Assembly (NCBI GenBank): GCA_019136325.1
Contig: JAGVUJ010000072.1
Coordinates: forward strand, 1-36,962
Reading direction: 5' to 3'
Length of the DNA: 36,962 bases
Origin: Deltaproteobacteria bacterium
Lineage (GTDB): Bacteria > Desulfobacterota > Syntrophia > Syntrophales > Smithellaceae
A program made the position numbers and the translations under genes. Under the pieces are notes generated by a model, which saw only the letters and a program-made list of their open reading frames with translations, did no database searches and was not told where the DNA came from. Of this stretch, positions 1 to 15,291 are shown in pieces. The stretch's first letter is position 1, and the number at the start of each line of letters is the position of its first letter.

Positions 1-319
1 TGTAGAAGCGTGCCGAGGTTCCTACAGGCCTCGTTAAACAGGTAGGAAACATATAATCGCAGACAACTACGATTACGCTTTAGCCGCTTAAGTCGGCTAA
101 CGTTCCACCCGGTTCTCCTGTCGGCCGGAATGGAACGTCATTTAGACAGGATAGCCAAACTTTTTGCCTGGGGAAGGGCGGCGAATCCTTACAGGATAGC
201 GCGGGGAGATCCGGCCTTAGGGAGCAAACCGGCGCGAAGGTTATAAAACGAAGGCTACGCACGTAGAAGCTCCAGCGGAAGGTTTTCGGACGCGGGTTCG
301 ACTCCCGCCGCCTCCACCA
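1..319 (+). ncRNA. ssrA: tmRNA (transfer-messenger RNA), 5' end cut off by window
   Basis: tmRNA rescues stalled ribosomes by adding a degradation tag. Seen directly: a resume codon GCA at 59-61 opens a tag reading frame A-D-N-Y-D-Y-A-L-A-A that ends at TAA 89-91. The RNA ends with a tRNA-like T arm (GGGTTCGACTCCC, about 293-305) and an acceptor strand ending in CCA at 317-319. Tags ending in ALAA are typical of proteobacteria. The 5' acceptor half (usually starting GGGG) lies before base 1, so the gene is incomplete here only because of the window edge. A 102-codon frame on the opposite strand is a by-product of RNA structure and was not called. Confidence 0.95.
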
Positions 320-3219: not shown

Positions 3220-4707
3220 TCAGTAGATATTACAAAGTCCTTCGCCTATAAATTCCCAGTGTTTCAAGTAATCCAGACGTTCTTTTTCTTCCATCATCGT
3301 ATCAATATCGGCTTTTGTCTTTAATGCATAGTTCCGATAAAATCTTCTGAAGATTTCGACCTCATCATCTTTTTTTATAAACAAATCCTGAAAACTTTTT
3401 ATAGATACTGGATTTGTCATTTTCACTTCGTAGACGGGTCTTTTCCCGATATACACATTTCTGCCGGCATTCAATGCGACTTTCACGCTCTGTTCATCAC
3501 CGCCCTGTCTTTCTGCCGTTAACTGCGGTGAGAAATAGACGATGATGAGATGATACTGATTGAAATCAATATGATTCAAAAGCGAGTGATGAACGAACAA
3601 ATCGTTTTTGTTTTCGTCGAAAAACCATAATTTTTTCCAACGCGTGTTTTTTTGAAATATTTTTACGAGTTTTTCGATATTGGCAGGCGTTTCCTCAATT
3701 TTCAATCCTCTGATAAAAAGCGATTCGGTCAATCCTTCATATCCGTTCCTCACATGAGACAGAAATCTTTCCTTGTACGCCTTTTTTTGAAATCTGTGTT
3801 TGTAGATTGCGCAGCAGTAATTAATGTTCAGTCCGATGTTACGGTCAAGGGCGTATCTCAAAATCCTCAATGCCGTCATTTCCGATTCCAGAACGGGAAT
3901 GTCGGGCTGGTGCAAAAACGTGTAGTGACGATCGATAAATTTCTTATAACAATATTGTGTGGCAAATAATTGATGTAAATTCAAATGCGCCACGCCTATG
4001 TCTTTCATTCGGGGTAGGCATCTTTTGAGGATTTTATAATCTTCCGGAATGACGGGAATTTCAACTGTAACCGTATCAATGATGCCGGCAGCAAACTCTA
4101 CGGCATTCAAATCATACTTTCTCGCTGCGATGTCAAACCGCACTTCGTTAAGGCCGGCTTTTTTCAGGGCGATCAACTTTTCCTTATTCACTAGATCGCC
4201 GTTTGAGTACATCCAGATATAGATTTCGCTGCCGATTCTTTCTCTGATTTTTCTGATATACGTCAGTATTTTCTCATACTGCAGCAGAGGTTCTCCGCCG
4301 GAGAAACTGACACCCTTAAATTTGAATGTTTTTAAATAATCGACGTAATCGTCCGGATCATCAAAGTGAATGCCAAAATCCGTTGGCGGTTGATTTTTTT
4401 TATTTTCCCTGTCCTGAGGGCAAAAAAAACAATTTGCCGTGCACAGGGAGCCAATAAAAAGGCACGACCATCCGCCGCCGCCGCAAATCATGCATCCCTC
4501 GGACAATTGCCCAAGAGTAATTTTATTTCCCAGAAAATTACTGGTCGTTCTGCCGGCAATAGATTGAAGCAATCTGTTTCTTTGAAGATGGGCCTTTTTT
4601 GCTTCTTCTTCCGAGAGCCACTTCATGTCATGATAAGCCCAACCGATATTTTCCCTGGCATACTGAAGGTCGATTTCCTTATTCCTCATATCGGTTTCCG
4701 CTTCCAT
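3220..4707 (-). CDS. Radical SAM enzyme, putative RiPP maturase
   Basis: Radical SAM proteins cleave S-adenosylmethionine at a [4Fe-4S] cluster to start radical chemistry. The cluster motif is C89-x3-C93-x2-C96 (CTANCFFCP), and the SAM-binding GGEP follows at 137-140. Just before the motif lies an unusual extra cysteine set, C72, C75 and C82 in SEGCMICGGGGWSCLF, which could hold a second cluster. A CC pair (INYCCAIY) lies in the C-terminal half, but there is no classical SPASM domain. Length is 495 aa. The gene follows the PqqD-like gene by 5 bases, and a short repeat-bearing peptide gene stands at the head of the same strand. This is the standard arrangement of a radical-SAM RiPP operon, so peptide modification is the likely role. 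The exact reaction is unknown. The second in-frame ATG (residue 7) is an alternative start. Confidence 0.8.
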   Translation of the reverse strand: MEAETDMRNKEIDLQYARENIGWAYHDMKWLSEEEAKKAHLQRNRLLQSIAGRTTSNFLGNKITLGQLSEGCMICGGGGWSCLFIGSLCTANCFFCPQDRENKKNQPPTDFGIHFDDPDDYVDYLKTFKFKGVSFSGGEPLLQYEKILTYIRKIRERIGSEIYIWMYSNGDLVNKEKLIALKKAGLNEVRFDIAARKYDLNAVEFAAGIIDTVTVEIPVIPEDYKILKRCLPRMKDIGVAHLNLHQLFATQYCYKKFIDRHYTFLHQPDIPVLESEMTALRILRYALDRNIGLNINYCCAIYKHRFQKKAYKERFLSHVRNGYEGLTESLFIRGLKIEETPANIEKLVKIFQKNTRWKKLWFFDENKNDLFVHHSLLNHIDFNQYHLIIVYFSPQLTAERQGGDEQSVKVALNAGRNVYIGKRPVYEVKMTNPVSIKSFQDLFIKKDDEVEIFRRFYRNYALKTKADIDTMMEEKERLDYLKHWEFIGEGLCNIY

Positions 4708-4712
4708 TCAAA

Positions 4713-5024
4713 TTAATTCGGGGGGATCGCAACAAGTATTTTTTTCTTCAGGAGTTTCCGCACAAAATCGGTTACATCCTTCTCAATCACTTTAGCGGGT
4801 GTTTCAAATTCGGACGCCAAAACAGCGATGATACTTTTCAGATTTCTTCTTCCATTCAGTTTTTTCCATACACGCTGTCCTGTTGCGTTCAGAATGTAAG
4901 GTTTATTTTCAGTATCGCCGGTGCCGGACGTCAGGGGAATGATGACGATAGAATTTTCCACTGTGCGCATCACGATGTCATCGGATGGGGCATAAACATC
5001 ATCCGGGGAGACTTGTTTTTTCAT
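4713..5024 (-). CDS. PqqD-like RiPP recognition element protein
   Basis: 103 aa. PqqD-family proteins are small winged-helix chaperones that hold the leader of a ribosomal peptide and present it to the radical SAM partner. Typical family features are visible: NKPYILNATGQRVWKKLNG (residues about 40-58), then a helix and a hydrophobic segment (SIIAVLASEFETPAKVIEKD) ending in DFVRKLLKKKILV. It is coded 5 bases upstream of the radical SAM gene, hence co-translated, and 150 bases downstream of the putative precursor gene. A weak AAGGT site precedes ATG 5024. Family assignment rests on pattern, not on a search. Confidence 0.8.
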   Translation of the reverse strand: MKKQVSPDDVYAPSDDIVMRTVENSIVIIPLTSGTGDTENKPYILNATGQRVWKKLNGRRNLKSIIAVLASEFETPAKVIEKDVTDFVRKLLKKKILVAIPPN

Positions 5025-5083
5025 AAATGGACCTTACGCGGGAGTTGACAGGTTTGTGACAGAACGGTACAATTAACTATTTA

Positions 5084-5113
5084 GCCGGTTGAAAATGGAA
5101 ATTTACAACCGGC
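5084..5113 (-). promoter_or_regulatory. Hairpin between precursor and PqqD genes
   Basis: GCCGGTTG (5084-5091) pairs perfectly with CAACCGGC (5106-5113) around a 14-base loop. No T-run follows on the minus strand, so it is unlikely to stop all transcription. In RiPP operons such a hairpin often keeps precursor mRNA more abundant than enzyme mRNA. A second, smaller inverted repeat (GTATTG-GAT-CAATAC) lies at 5132-5146. Confidence 0.45.
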
Positions 5114-5174
5114 CTGTAAGCAAACCTCATTGTATTGGATCAATACCTCGATATAAAAATCGTCTATTGACCTG

Positions 5175-5348
5175 TTATATCAAGGTAGAAGGTGTCGGAG
5201 GAACACCTTTGGCGTACACCGTTCTTGCAGGTGCGGGAGGAACTCCCAAACCATTCAGTGCTTTTGCTCTCCGGTCCGTACCGGTGTTTCTTTTACTTTG
5301 CGCCGTTACGCTGATATCCGGTTTTTGCCACTGGTTGTTTTTCTTCAT
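5175..5348 (-). CDS. Putative RiPP precursor peptide with GVPPAP / GVPPTP repeats
   Basis: A 57-residue ORF read directly from the minus strand. It begins MKKNNQWQKPDISVTA, has a basic Lys/Arg-rich middle, and then carries two repeats of a Pro-rich motif: LGVPPAPARTVY and AKGVPPTPSTLI, the second at the C-terminus. It has a strong ribosome-binding site (AAGAGGAG, 6 bases before ATG) and a near-consensus promoter 30 bases further up. It heads a minus-strand unit with PqqD-like and radical SAM genes. A leader plus repeated C-terminal core is the classic design of a ribosomally made, modified peptide. There is no Cys in the peptide, so thioether formation is excluded. Epimerisation, C-C or C-O crosslinking or another radical modification would be candidates. 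The role is inferred from context and repeat structure. Confidence 0.7.
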   Translation of the reverse strand: MKKNNQWQKPDISVTAQSKRNTGTDRRAKALNGLGVPPAPARTVYAKGVPPTPSTLI

Positions 5349-5384
5349 TGATTTCTCCTCTTTTTGATAAGAAATTATTGGTAA

Positions 5385-5413
5385 TTTATAATAAGCAAAA
5401 CATTATATGTCAA
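5385..5413 (-). promoter_or_regulatory. Sigma-70-like promoter of the precursor gene
   Basis: On the minus strand TTGACA (5413-5408), a 17-base spacer and TATAAA (5390-5385). Transcription would start near 5378, about 30 bases before the precursor start codon. Confidence 0.65.
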
Positions 5414-5424
5414 GAATATATTCA

Positions 5425-5440
5425 TCGATAGATGTATCGA
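5425..5440. promoter_or_regulatory. Palindrome upstream of the precursor promoter
   Basis: TCGATA-GATG-TATCGA, a perfect 6-bp inverted repeat 11 bases upstream of the -35 element. The position suits an activator-type operator. No regulator gene is adjacent. The rest of 5441-5655 shows no gene or clear element. Confidence 0.4.
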
Positions 5441-10981: not shown

Positions 10982-12232
10982 ATGAACGTTATGAACACCA
11001 ATTTGACCGATCAACAGGCAAGGACAGCCTACCTGGAACAACATTACGGCAAAGACATTCTGCCGCTGTCGGCATTCGAACAAACCATGCCGGGATCGGA
11101 GCCGATAGAAATTCTCTTCTTTTATAAGAAAGACACGCCTGTATCAAAATTGCGAGAAAGTCTTTTAAAAACCATTGAGCATTATAATCTGTTTTCCAGC
11201 CGCCTGATCATGACCGATCGGGATAAATTTGCGTTGCAGTACTGCACGGATGGCGCCTTGGCCGTTGTTCTGCCGTCTCTGGATAAAAAATTCGACGAGA
11301 TTGAGATCGACGAAATCAAGAGCAGAATGGTGCATGTCAAAACGTTGCCGGGCGAGCCTCTGTTGGCCGTAACGGGCATACCCGTCCGGGACGGCATATT
11401 CGGCGGAATCAGTTGTTCGCATACGGTGGCCGATGGCATTTCCTTGATGCTGTTTCTTTATGCGTGGATGTGCATCACAGAGGGCAAGCCCTTTTTGCTT
11501 CCATCCGGACAGAAATTGTTTCAGGGCCAACCGGTTCGCTCCATCGATATCGACAAGGTATTTACCCCGCCTTTGTCGAAACTGAGCGACGTTATTCAAA
11601 AGCGAGTCAAAAGAGCCGCCATAAAAACCTATGCGAAAAGGGAATATTTTTCGGAAGAATTTCTTCGGGATATGAAAGACAGAGCAAAGGCGGAAAACGA
11701 AAAATACAGCATTTCCGACAACCAGATTATCACGGCTTATTTACTGAAAAAGTATCACAGCGTAATGATGCCGAAAACGGACAGAATCGTGTTGAGAACG
11801 CCCGTCAATTTCCGCGACATTCATCCGGATATCGATCCACTTTACATCGGCAATGCGCAGTATTATTGTGTGACCATCTATGAAAAAGACGAAATCGATA
11901 ATATGTCGGTTTACGACGTCGCCTTCCGCCTGAAAGAATCCATTTCCCGCATGCGCAATGAAAATTTTCTGAAAGAATTGTCCCAGCTCTCGACATACGG
12001 CATAGAAATAAAAACCGGTCTGTTCAAAAACGATCCTCCGGGCAATATGGACGCGGACATCCTTTCCAGCAACCTGACGCATCTTACCGATCTCGAAGCG
12101 ATGGGCGTCGGCTCGGATGTCGGCAGCGTTTTATCCATCACCCTGGCATATTACAAAACAAACTTTATTATCCTGAAAGAAAAAAGCGGCAAACTATTTG
12201 CGGAAATTTCAAGCATGTACCCCTTTATTTGA
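10982..12232 (+). CDS. BAHD / condensation-domain-like acyltransferase
   Basis: 416 aa. This superfamily (BAHD transferases, NRPS condensation domains, PapA-type enzymes) transfers acyl groups from CoA or carrier proteins to alcohols or amines. The catalytic HxxxD is seen as H147-TVA-D151 in GGISCSHTVADGISL. The flanking layout is typical: a beta-hairpin, FGGISCSH, then a helix with LFLYAWM, and later a second lobe with RTPVNFRDIHPD. The second BAHD signature DFGWG is not recognisable (DLEAMGVGSDVG at that place), so the active-site channel differs. No carrier protein is coded nearby. The gene is followed 111 bases later by the 54-aa peptide, making a peptide substrate a possible reading. Start is ATG 10982 or 10991; no clear ribosome-binding site. 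An O/N-acyltransferase of a secondary metabolite is the alternative. Confidence 0.7.
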   Translation: MNVMNTNLTDQQARTAYLEQHYGKDILPLSAFEQTMPGSEPIEILFFYKKDTPVSKLRESLLKTIEHYNLFSSRLIMTDRDKFALQYCTDGALAVVLPSLDKKFDEIEIDEIKSRMVHVKTLPGEPLLAVTGIPVRDGIFGGISCSHTVADGISLMLFLYAWMCITEGKPFLLPSGQKLFQGQPVRSIDIDKVFTPPLSKLSDVIQKRVKRAAIKTYAKREYFSEEFLRDMKDRAKAENEKYSISDNQIITAYLLKKYHSVMMPKTDRIVLRTPVNFRDIHPDIDPLYIGNAQYYCVTIYEKDEIDNMSVYDVAFRLKESISRMRNENFLKELSQLSTYGIEIKTGLFKNDPPGNMDADILSSNLTHLTDLEAMGVGSDVGSVLSITLAYYKTNFIILKEKSGKLFAEISSMYPFI

Positions 12233-12269
12233 GGGAATCTGCAATCCTGAAAAGCCAGCCATATTTTGA

Positions 12270-12297
12270 TTGACAAAAAATATAAATCTTTTATCAT
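12270..12297 (+). promoter_or_regulatory. Promoter of the 54-aa peptide gene
   Basis: TTGACA (12270-12275), 16 bases, TATCAT (12292-12297). It lies after the acyltransferase stop, so the peptide has its own transcription start near 12304 besides any read-through. Confidence 0.6.
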
Positions 12298-12343
12298 TTC
12301 AAAAGATATGAATAAAACAATAATGATGAGAAAGGAGAATATT

Positions 12344-12508
12344 ATGGAAAATTTAAATGGTGTTCCTCCGAAAAGAGCCATCGATCAGAATTTATCAGGA
12401 GATGTGATTCGTGAGCCTTATGCCTATTATGAAGTGCCCATCGAAGACGAAACAGTAATGAAAATATCATGGGGGTGTCCTCCCGGCGGCGGTGGCGATG
12501 CTGTTTAA
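12344..12508 (+). CDS. Putative modified-peptide precursor (54 aa, C-terminal GCPPGGGGDAV)
   Basis: ATG 12344 has AAGGAG 6 bases upstream, a promoter in front and a perfect 18-bp terminator 82 bases behind. The peptide starts MENLNGVPPKRAID, continues with an acidic/aromatic middle (REPYAYYEVPIEDE) and ends VMKISWGCPPGGGGDAV. The ending matches the micro-ORF at 10658-10705, and the GVPP near the N-terminus matches the precursor at 5175-5348, down to a shared 13-base stretch GGTGTTCCTCCGA. The last 16 residues look like a core and the rest like a leader. Neighbouring acyltransferase, formyltransferase-like and ligase-like genes are candidate tailoring enzymes, and the PqqD/radical SAM pair 7 kb away is another. 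No matching known family comes to mind. Confidence 0.65.
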   Translation: MENLNGVPPKRAIDQNLSGDVIREPYAYYEVPIEDETVMKISWGCPPGGGGDAV

Positions 12509-12590
12509 AAGATCATCGGTCCGTTAAGCAGGAAGATCCGATGTCTGCGGATGACTGATGAATGACAATCCTTGAGGAGCAGAAAAAAAT

Positions 12591-12630
12591 AAACAAAAAG
12601 CAGAGCCGTTTCCGGCTCTGCTTTTTGTTT
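12591..12630 (+). terminator. Strong terminator after the 54-aa peptide gene
   Basis: A perfect 18-bp stem (12591-12608 with 12613-12630), loop TTTC, ending in CTTTTTGTTT. It separates the peptide from the formyltransferase gene, which must then use read-through or its own promoter. Confidence 0.85.
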
Positions 12631-12685
12631 CAATCATGGTCTGATGAATTATTGGGGAAAAGAGAACAACCGGAGAAACAACAAG

Positions 12686-13681
12686 ATGCATCGCGTGGTT
12701 ATTTTTGCCAATACGGTGTGGGGTGTTCCGTCTGTTCTTATCAAAGGCACGCTGGCTGCAATATCCAGACGTGCGGATTTTGATCTTGTTGCCATTTGCC
12801 TTCCGGAAAGACCGTCGACCTCAAAAATATTTATATACAGCATGTTGTATACGGCTGTTATCAACCTCAGATCTTTTATGAACCCGGCCATAAAAAGAAA
12901 ACATCGATCTCTTCATCCGATCCCTGTATGTCGTTTAGCCCGAAAATATCGCTTTGAACTGGTCATCCCTCCGCTGGGCAACATTAACGATCCGGTTTTT
13001 ATTGCATATCTGCGAGACAAGATCAGACCGACTATCGCTTTGTCATTCTATTGTCTCAGGAAATTCAGTCCTTCATTACTGGCAACTTTTCAATATGCAG
13101 TAAATTATCATAACAGCTTTTTGCCAAAAAACAGGGGACGCAACGCAACGTCATGGTCTCTCTATCAAGATGAGCCATACAGCGGGTTTACCTTTCATTA
13201 TATGACGGCGGAATGGGATGCCGGCCGTATCCTGGTTCAGGAAAATCTGCCGGTGAGGTCTGATGATCATCTGTCTGATCTGGAAATGGAAAAAGCCACT
13301 CAAGCGGCACGCTATATTCCTCAGATTCTTCAAATGGTTTCCGAGGGGGTCGATGGCGAATCGCAAAAGGGAGCAGGGAGTTACCATTCGTGGAAGGACT
13401 GTCTGTCGCTATCCGCCATCGCAGATCCTTCTTCTCTTTCAAAAATGGAACTCATGAAAAGACTGAAGTCTTTTGAAAAGCTGGATATACAATTTTCAGG
13501 CCGATGGTATGAGGTTACTGGAATTAGAGAAGTGAAGAAGGGACTTGAAAATAAAGAAAAATTTACGTTTATGACATCGGATGGATCTCTGATGAAAGCG
13601 GTTCATTTCTTGTATCTTCCGTATGGATTGTATTGGATATATCAGCATATCAAACATCTTGTCATGACACCCGATAAATAA
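12686..13681 (+). CDS. Formyltransferase-fold protein (Fmt/PurN-like)
   Basis: 331 aa from ATG 12686 (GGAGA 9 bases upstream); a longer frame from 12644 lacks a good site. The formyl-tetrahydrofolate-dependent transferase fold is recognised from the catalytic triad N140-x-H142 (VNYHNSFLPKNRGRN) and D178 (MTAEWDAGRILVQE). These match the usual N-x-H-x-S-L-L-P...D-x-G-x-I pattern. The N-terminal VVIFANTVWGVPSVLIKGTL resembles the Fmt nucleotide-fold start. It is not the housekeeping tRNA formyltransferase: the sequence is divergent and the genomic context differs. Such stand-alone enzymes formylate amino sugars, amines or peptide N-termini in secondary pathways. A terminal membrane-like helix (FLYLPYGLYWIYQHI) is unusual. 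Confidence 0.7.
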   Translation: MHRVVIFANTVWGVPSVLIKGTLAAISRRADFDLVAICLPERPSTSKIFIYSMLYTAVINLRSFMNPAIKRKHRSLHPIPVCRLARKYRFELVIPPLGNINDPVFIAYLRDKIRPTIALSFYCLRKFSPSLLATFQYAVNYHNSFLPKNRGRNATSWSLYQDEPYSGFTFHYMTAEWDAGRILVQENLPVRSDDHLSDLEMEKATQAARYIPQILQMVSEGVDGESQKGAGSYHSWKDCLSLSAIADPSSLSKMELMKRLKSFEKLDIQFSGRWYEVTGIREVKKGLENKEKFTFMTSDGSLMKAVHFLYLPYGLYWIYQHIKHLVMTPDK

Positions 13682-13782
13682 AATATTAGACTATTGGCTG
13701 TATTTAGTATACAAAAACTACATTATATTTATCTTCGATGCTTTTTTTTATTTTCTTGAAAAAAGATTCTTGGTTGTGTTAA

Positions 13783-15291
13783 GTGACCAGCATTTTTCGG
13801 GGAGGTTTCAAGGCCATTCATCTCATTAACTTACTGGACGACGCGGTTCAAAAACACGGTGAGCGTACCGCCCTAATCAGCGATAAGCAGTATATTACTT
13901 ACGGACAGTTAACCCGGGCTGTCAATGCGGTTGCCGGATTAATACGGAAATCAGGAATCGGCAAGGGTGATAAAGTAACGGTCATGCTCCCCAACATTCC
14001 GGAGTTTGTTTACTCTTACTTCGGCATTGTCAAAAACGGCGCGGTGGTTGTACCGATTAATCCGTTAACCACGCCGTCGGAATTGATTTATCTTCTGAAT
14101 AATTCGGATTCGAAGATTCTGATAACGCAATCCGTTCAGATTAAAAAATTTAACGAAATCAAAGATCAACTTTTATCCTGCCGGCAGGTGATTGCCGTTG
14201 ATGCCTTAAATCAGGGAGAAGAACCTTTTCCGGGCGCCGATTCACAAGGCTCGTCCTTTATTCCGGTGAACATCAAACCGGAAGATCCGGCGGTCATGAT
14301 ATATACTGCGGGTTTGACGGGAAGACCTTTGGGCGCCGTGCTGACGCATCACAATTTGTATTCACAGGCTGTTGTGACTCAAACTATTGCGCAAAGAGCG
14401 CCAGATGATGTCGCGCTGGCGCTGATCCCGCTTTTTCATGCTTTCGGAGCCACGGCCAATATGCTTCTGTCGATTCGTGCCGGTTGTTCCATTGTGATGA
14501 TGGACCGGCTGACCATGGATGGTCTCTTCAGCGCGATAGAAAGAGAAAAAATCACTTACATATCGGCCGTACCGCGTCTGTTTATGGGAATGATTTTTTA
14601 TGAAAAGGCGTCCAAGTACGACACGAGTTCTTTGAAACTATGCGTGACCGGCGGATCGGCGATGCCGGCGGATTTCATGCATGTATTTGAAGAAAAATTC
14701 AATCTCAAGCTTTTGGAAGGTTACGGATTAACGGAAGCGTCGCCTGTATGTTCTTTTAATCGATTCGATCAGGTTTACAAACCGGGATCCATCGGCACGG
14801 CGATAACGGGCGTGGAAATCAAAATCGTTGACGATGAGGGAGGTGAACTGCCCCGCAATCAAATCGGCGAATTGGCCGTTAAGGGAGAGAATGTCATGCA
14901 GGGCTATTATAAGAATGAAGCGGCAACGGCCGCAGTCATCAGAAACGGCTGGCTGCACACGGGCGATCTGGGCCGGATGGATGAAGATGGCTACATTTTT
15001 ATTACGGGGCTCAAGAAGAGGATGATCATCACCAGCGGATTTAACGTTTATCCGCGCGAAGTGGAAACGGTGCTGAATGCGCATCCGGCGGTGAAAGCCG
15101 CCAGGGTATCGGGCAAGCAAGACCTGATGCGCGGTGAAATCGTCAAAGCCCATGTGGTTTTGAACGAGGGAGAAAACATCGACGAAAAAGAAATTATCCG
15201 TTACTGTAAAACCTATCTTTCCAATTACAAAGTTCCGCGTGAAATAGAATTTGTGCGGGAAATATCAGCGACGATGGATATCGAGTATTGA
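13783..15291 (+). CDS. AMP-forming acyl-CoA synthetase homologue, key lysines missing
   Basis: 502 aa of the ANL superfamily (acyl-CoA synthetases, NRPS adenylation domains, luciferase). Core motifs are clear: LEGYGLTEASPV, WLHTGDLGRMDEDGYIFITGLKKRMIITSGFNVYPREVE. Two catalytic elements deviate. The P-loop usually reads YTSGTTGxPKG, but here it is YTAGLTGRPLGA (174-185), losing the Lys. The C-terminal A10 motif (PKTxxGK) is replaced by ISATMDIEY and the protein ends there, so the adenylation Lys is gone. Either the enzyme is inactive or repurposed, or it is decaying. The start is also odd: the GTG at 13783 has no good site, while GGGGAGGT lies just before an ATT codon (13816) where relatives usually begin. 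It follows the formyltransferase gene on the same strand. Confidence 0.8.
   Translation: MTSIFRGGFKAIHLINLLDDAVQKHGERTALISDKQYITYGQLTRAVNAVAGLIRKSGIGKGDKVTVMLPNIPEFVYSYFGIVKNGAVVVPINPLTTPSELIYLLNNSDSKILITQSVQIKKFNEIKDQLLSCRQVIAVDALNQGEEPFPGADSQGSSFIPVNIKPEDPAVMIYTAGLTGRPLGAVLTHHNLYSQAVVTQTIAQRAPDDVALALIPLFHAFGATANMLLSIRAGCSIVMMDRLTMDGLFSAIEREKITYISAVPRLFMGMIFYEKASKYDTSSLKLCVTGGSAMPADFMHVFEEKFNLKLLEGYGLTEASPVCSFNRFDQVYKPGSIGTAITGVEIKIVDDEGGELPRNQIGELAVKGENVMQGYYKNEAATAAVIRNGWLHTGDLGRMDEDGYIFITGLKKRMIITSGFNVYPREVETVLNAHPAVKAARVSGKQDLMRGEIVKAHVVLNEGENIDEKEIIRYCKTYLSNYKVPREIEFVREISATMDIEY

Follow-up and report, generated by a model that had tools for sequence, protein, structure and literature searches.

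Among the described systems, the spliceotides of Pleurocapsa (PlpA/PlpX/PlpY) pair a radical SAM enzyme with a stand-alone RRE, and PlpXY removes tyramine (-135.0757 Da) at X-Tyr-Gly, with MYG and LYG as natural sites (PMC10533398, excerpt). In the tags tried in FtsZ, acceptance was seen for two YGLPI forms but not for most, and neither YGVVFP form was accepted (PMC10533398, excerpt). PlpX is a SPASM enzyme, and the leaders of this group are nitrile-hydratase- or Nif11-like (PMC11002830, excerpt). PqqD-family RREs act in trans in PqqA/D/E and in lasso-peptide systems (TbiB1, PbaB1), where the motif [Y/W]xxPx[L/V/I/A/F/Y] is described for lasso and PQQ leaders (PMC13381572, excerpt) and W/Y/LxxP/L/I recognition sequences are given for the PqqD, FusE, McjB and StsC groups (PMC12710340, excerpt). 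In the poly-cyclopropylglycine system TvgA/TvgB, a short Val-holding repeat, TVGG, is modified by the radical SAM enzyme TvgB, and the excerpted text names tvgABCDE without a PqqD-like protein (PMC9062424).

The locus described here lies in a window of 36,962 nucleotides, the whole stretch of DNA that was analysed, and reads as a three-gene RiPP cassette with a multi-copy core, to which we assign a probability of about 0.8. This reading is very probable because of the conserved leader, the core present in 1-3 copies, the RRE-type leader motif and the TbiB1-related PqqD-like protein; the figure covers the RiPP framework, which is shared by a rival reading with a known C-H modification, and the chemistry stands outside it. 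The locus resembles the spliceotides in its radical SAM enzyme and stand-alone RRE and in the X-Tyr-Gly found in the cores of the window peptide's relatives, whereas the peptide of the window itself lacks X-Tyr-Gly (LNG and VYA stand there in its two repeats), the window enzyme has no SPASM match and the leader is of a short WxxP type. It shares with PqqA/D/E and the lasso RREs a PqqD-family RRE in trans and a [Y/W]xxPx[hydrophobic] leader, but enzyme and core are different and the PqqD-like protein falls below the PQQ equivalog cut-off; with TvgA/TvgB it shares the repeat core and the radical SAM maturase, but not the repeat itself. The logic (RRE, radical SAM enzyme, repeat core) is a known one, and the enzyme and core fit none of the classes compared here. 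The statement in the preliminary description that no known class comes to mind was too quick, since relatives of the peptide carry X-Tyr-Gly repeats as in spliceotides, although the enzyme is not of the splicease type. The features of the cassette are as follows.

5385..5413, minus strand, promoter-like site TTGACA-N17-TATAAA, 11/12 against the sigma-70 consensus, a consensus match only
5175..5348, minus strand, putative precursor peptide gene, 57 aa, with relatives P0122-P0125 and a GAGGAG RBS
5313..5330, minus strand, predicted leader recognition motif WQKPDI, residues 7-12, with W-Q-K-P-D identical in 5/5 precursors
5229..5258, minus strand, core repeat 1, LNGLGVPPAP, residues 31-40, with Asn in place of the consensus Tyr
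5190..5219, minus strand, core repeat 2, VYAKGVPPTP, residues 44-53, with Tyr-Ala
5084..5113, minus strand, hairpin with 8-bp perfect arms between the precursor and PqqD genes, seen in the sequence
4713..5024, minus strand, PqqD-family RRE protein, 103 aa, PF05402 at 52.8 bits against a cut-off of 23.4 (5.1e-14)
4462..4494, minus strand, extra Cys motif GCMICGGGGWSC, residues 71-82, C72-x2-C75-x6-C82, Cys invariant in 85/85
4420..4443, minus strand, radical SAM cluster motif CxxxCxxC, C89-x3-C93-x2-C96, residues 89-96, invariant in 85/85
3220..4707, minus strand, radical SAM enzyme, 495 aa, PF04055 at 54.1 bits against a cut-off of 29.5 (2.7e-14)

According to the ORF list of the window, the peptide gene (5348-5175) is followed by the PqqD gene (5024-4713) and the radical SAM gene (4707-3220) on one strand throughout, separated by 150 and 5 bases; this linkage of precursor, PqqD and radical SAM genes was seen in one locus, the window. 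The RBS lies 6 nt 5' of the peptide ATG, and a standard promoter scan, which accepts only T as the last base of the second hexamer, omits the 5413-5385 site. The preliminary description had read a 57-residue ORF with a promoter, a strong RBS and two C-terminal GVPPxP repeats as the head of a unit with a PqqD-like and a radical SAM gene, the latter with an extra Cys set just ahead of its CxxxCxxC, and had taken the whole for RiPP maturation; the sequence features were borne out, the promoter as a promoter-like site, and the RiPP reading is well supported by the conserved leader, the variable-copy core, the RRE-type motif and the strand and order of the genes. In the proposed mechanism, the peptide would consist of a ~26-residue leader followed by tandem [LIVP]-Tyr-[Gly/Ala]-x-Gly-Val-Pro-Pro-x-Pro units as its C-terminal core, and the RRE would grip the leader and, we infer, present the core to the radical SAM enzyme. 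The enzyme, with a SAM cluster on C89/C93/C96 and perhaps a second [4Fe-4S] on C72/C75/C82/C298, would then act on the repeats, while a protease and an exporter, none of which was found nearby, would come from elsewhere. A Pfam scan of 35 window proteins, a subset of the ORFs, yielded no second radical SAM gene, RiPP-type peptidase or transporter that stood out, and no lasso-type Asn-synthetase-like cyclase or B2 protease.

Judged by its sequence, the 57-aa ORF is a member of a real peptide family. With the window peptide as the only query, P0122 (E 7.7e-17) was the single relative found besides the window's own entry, and a profile of the two added P0123, P0124 and P0125 (E 7.8e-34 to 2.1e-19); the four relatives, all predicted proteins, in the order P0122 to P0125, have 78, 77, 79 and 60 aa, and P0124, judged from its letters, appears to change frame past its first repeat. 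The leader segment K2-D11 (KKNNQWQKPD) is identical in all five aligned precursors, the window's included. Over the first 30 residues the relatives share 17-20/30 identities with the window peptide, and beyond residue 30 they share 17/27, 16/27, 10/17 and 15/27 aligned positions (P0122-P0125). The peptide has no match in Pfam or NCBIfam to E 1. Neither it nor its relatives contain Cys, which upholds the earlier exclusion of sactipeptides and ranthipeptides, there being no core Cys for a thioether. The nitrile hydratase-like or Nif11-like leader type was likewise set aside, given the short WxxP leader and the absence of a Pfam or NCBIfam match to E 1.

The WQKPD[IL] of the precursors fits both published RRE leader motifs (PMC13381572, PMC12710340, excerpts). 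Within the first 30 aa, the pattern W.KP.[ILM] occurs in 4/1835 ORFs of 30-130 aa from 15 stretches (the window and L022-L035), namely the window peptide and small ORFs in L024, L032 and L033 near PqqD/radical SAM genes; all four lie <=1200 bases from a PqqD gene, compared with 150/1835 ORFs overall (hypergeometric P 4e-5), a value to be read with the pattern narrowed after the leader was seen and L032-L035 selected for holding PqqD. The broad [WY]..P.[LVIAFY] showed no significant enrichment near PqqD in the window and L022-L035 (5/31 matches near, P 0.10).

At the DNA level, the GVPPxP pattern occurs twice in the 36962 bases, both times inside the peptide ORF, compared with an expected mean of 0.01 and with two occurrences in 0/100 shuffles, for a pattern picked after the repeat was seen. 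The conserved unit in the relatives is longer than GVPPxP and reads [LIVP]-Y-[GA]-x-GVPPxP, containing Tyr-Gly or Tyr-Ala. The five precursors hold 11 repeat copies, 1-3 per sequence, those of the relatives being as follows.

P0122: LYGLGVPPIP, LYAMGVPPAP, IYGKGVPPEP
P0123: LYGLGVPPAP, LYGMGVPPRP, IYGEGVPPRP
P0124: LYGLGVPPIP
P0125: LYGVGVPPAP, PYGVGVPPVP

Tyr is present in 10/11 repeats and the final Pro in 11/11, and the residue after the Tyr position is Gly in nine and Ala in two; Tyr-Gly itself occurs in 8/11, as [LIP]YG in P0122-P0125, and Tyr-Ala in two. Since the copies were collected by every GVPP in the five sequences, the constancy of GVPP is built into the count, and the copies, being homologous, do not amount to independent observations.

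The best solved relative of the window's PqqD-family protein is TbiB1 (9.3e-07 over residues 14-98), a lasso-peptide RRE with structures 5v1u and 5v1v solved with leader peptides, and this homology supports a role as the RRE holding the leader through W7-x-x-P10-x-I12. The PQQ PqqD equivalog was not reached (TIGR03859, 39.1 bits, cut-off 46), and the GeoRSP and SynChlorMet models of the PqqD family (TIGR04302, TIGR04248) gave 27.5 and 23.9 bits against cut-offs of 100.

The radical SAM enzyme has 1531 homologues at E<=1e-3 among 7996 candidates scored, and the closest, P0001 (489 aa, 92% identity), begins at window Met7, which makes 4689 the probable true start. Seven Cys are invariant in 85 sequences (C72, C75, C82, C89, C93, C96, C298), and C72, C75, C82 and C298 are perhaps the ligands of an auxiliary Fe-S cluster, the cluster itself being predicted from this conservation. 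The AF2 model is of high confidence (pLDDT 94.1, pTM 0.90). A Pfam scan to E 1 yields Radical_SAM and Fer4_12 only, with no match to SPASM, and no nif11-type maturase model is among the best 25 of 38 NCBIfam matches. Among the matches listed, none reaches a curated NCBIfam cut-off, and the best is HxsC of the His-Xaa-Ser system, though at 36.6 bits against a cut-off of 267.9 and over the radical SAM core only. By these profile comparisons the enzyme fits no named family. We know of no characterised member of the large radical SAM family to which it belongs, and the cassette names a likely substrate for that family.

At E<=1e-20 the enzyme was found in 5/285 Omnitrophota and 6/400 Chloroflexota genomes. 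The five Omnitrophota relatives (L022-L026) have 39-46% identity, with one partial at 35%. A phmmer search with the window PqqD found none in L022, L023, L025 and L026, where both enzyme flanks are visible, and one ~6 kb from the enzyme in L024, where the upstream side ends at the contig end, so that adjacency is judged in four Omnitrophota loci and not five. Near the Chloroflexota relative L002 (51% identity), no PqqD was found on the visible 2.5 kb upstream. The Omnitrophota loci in which no adjacent PqqD was found indicate that the link between this enzyme family and PqqD is not universal; of the conservation beside PqqD/radical SAM pairs on which the preliminary description had staked its reading, that of the small ORF itself was seen, and the four enzyme relatives with both flanks visible showed no adjacent PqqD. 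Radical SAM/B12 enzymes lie nearby in L024, L025 and L026, whereas neither L022 nor L023 resembles a RiPP locus.

Several of these neighbourhoods hold candidate cassettes of other kinds. PqqD, a small ORF with a W-x-K-P-x-[ILM] leader and a radical SAM gene occur together in L032 (10519-13251), L033 (2745-4277) and L024 (4778-6222), all from Omnitrophota genomes and different from the window's cassette, two with Cys in the core. A 47-aa ORF in L025 (876-1019; MRRKKIVPVKKSKKLYKTPEIEKVRV...) with a YKTPEI leader (YxxPx[I]) lies ~2.5 kb from the enzyme, near a B12 radical SAM gene and an ORF resembling an S26 peptidase by eye. The Omnitrophota cluster at L026 2037-11041 combines several radical SAM genes with a precursor-like, Cys-containing ORF of 67 aa (2283-2486), 6 kb from the remote homologue (35%) of the window enzyme. 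Chloroflexota enzyme relatives of 28-31% identity (L027-L031) stand beside molybdopterin oxidoreductase and TatA/TatC-like genes, by eye, and are possibly maturases of the neighbouring enzymes.

Two explanations would take the enzyme or the peptide out of the cassette. That the RiPP pair consists of the peptide and PqqD, with a radical SAM protein of wider use downstream by chance and not as the (only) maturase, agrees with the breadth of the family and with the copies found without PqqD beside an ETF-domain protein (L022) and downstream of a radical SAM/UPF0004 gene (L023); this is improbable in view of the shared strand and the 5-base gap to PqqD, and no second radical SAM protein was found among the 35 window proteins scanned, but upstream, at 2-4 kb and in the same orientation, there are genes for a methyltransferase and a UbiA protein. 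PPxP motifs stall ribosomes, and the ORF, which contains them and is followed by a hairpin in the 150-base gap, might instead be a regulatory leader peptide controlling the downstream genes. However, a peptide can stall ribosomes without a conserved W-x-K-P leader and without 1-3 tandem units, and the hairpin is weak (-36.1 kcal/mol for the 161-nt region, z -1.80, with 9/200 shuffles equally good); this explanation is very improbable.

Within the RiPP cassette, the main competition concerns the chemistry. A known, non-splicing C-H modification by the same enzyme (a Tyr crosslink, cyclopropylglycine from Val, or epimerisation) is a serious contender, with a chance a little under one half. In these repeats, which were defined by GVPP, GVPPxP varies no more than Tyr does, repeat 1 of the window retains GVPPxP without Tyr, TvgA offers a precedent in its short Val repeat (PMC9062424, excerpt), and the structural matches include the RiPP enzymes SuiB, SkfB, ChlB and EpeE. 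Tyr with a small next residue is likewise kept in 10/11 repeats, however, the structures align mostly over the radical SAM barrel that such enzymes have in common, which does not separate chemistries, and SuiB and SkfB have SPASM/twitch domains (PMC8326336, excerpt), for which the window enzyme shows no match. The reaction is most likely centred on the repeat Tyr, because Tyr stands in 10/11 repeats (Tyr-Gly in 8, Tyr-Ala in 2). Splicease-like tyramine excision at X-Tyr-Gly is our best precise guess, although a doubtful one, and a non-SPASM radical SAM splicease with an origin separate from PlpX, excising tyramine at each [LIVP]-Tyr-Gly/Ala of a short precursor with several cores, is equally speculative; otherwise, the reaction would be a crosslink or another C-H modification. 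The LYGLGVPP of the relatives has in common with the PlpXY tags the Tyr-Gly, a hydrophobic residue ahead and prolines behind, but its Tyr-Pro spacing is that of YGVVFP, which failed in FtsZ (PMC10533398, excerpt), so the spacing lends splicing weak support. Against splicing stand the three repeat copies without Tyr-Gly (two with Tyr-Ala, one with no Tyr), both of the window's among them. Because the motif is repeated, a single mass spectrometry experiment could read out the chemistry. If splicing occurs, anaerobic bacteria would, by a non-SPASM splicease, make peptides bearing several alpha-keto-beta-amino residues; this would point to two separate origins of backbone tyramine excision and provide a compact new enzyme/tag pair. 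If not, the cassette would hold a new modification of Tyr-Gly/Val-Pro repeats.

Elsewhere in the window, genes for a PF02458 transferase, an 80-aa ORF, a PF00551 formyltransferase-like protein and an AMP-binding ligase stand in a row on the plus strand (10982-15291), perhaps as another small biosynthetic cluster; the 80-aa ORF (12266-12508, plus strand) contains LNGVPPKR and has the C-terminal end WGCPPGGGGDAV. A tmRNA gene (1-319, plus strand; Rfam RF00023, 154.9 bits) is cut at the window start.
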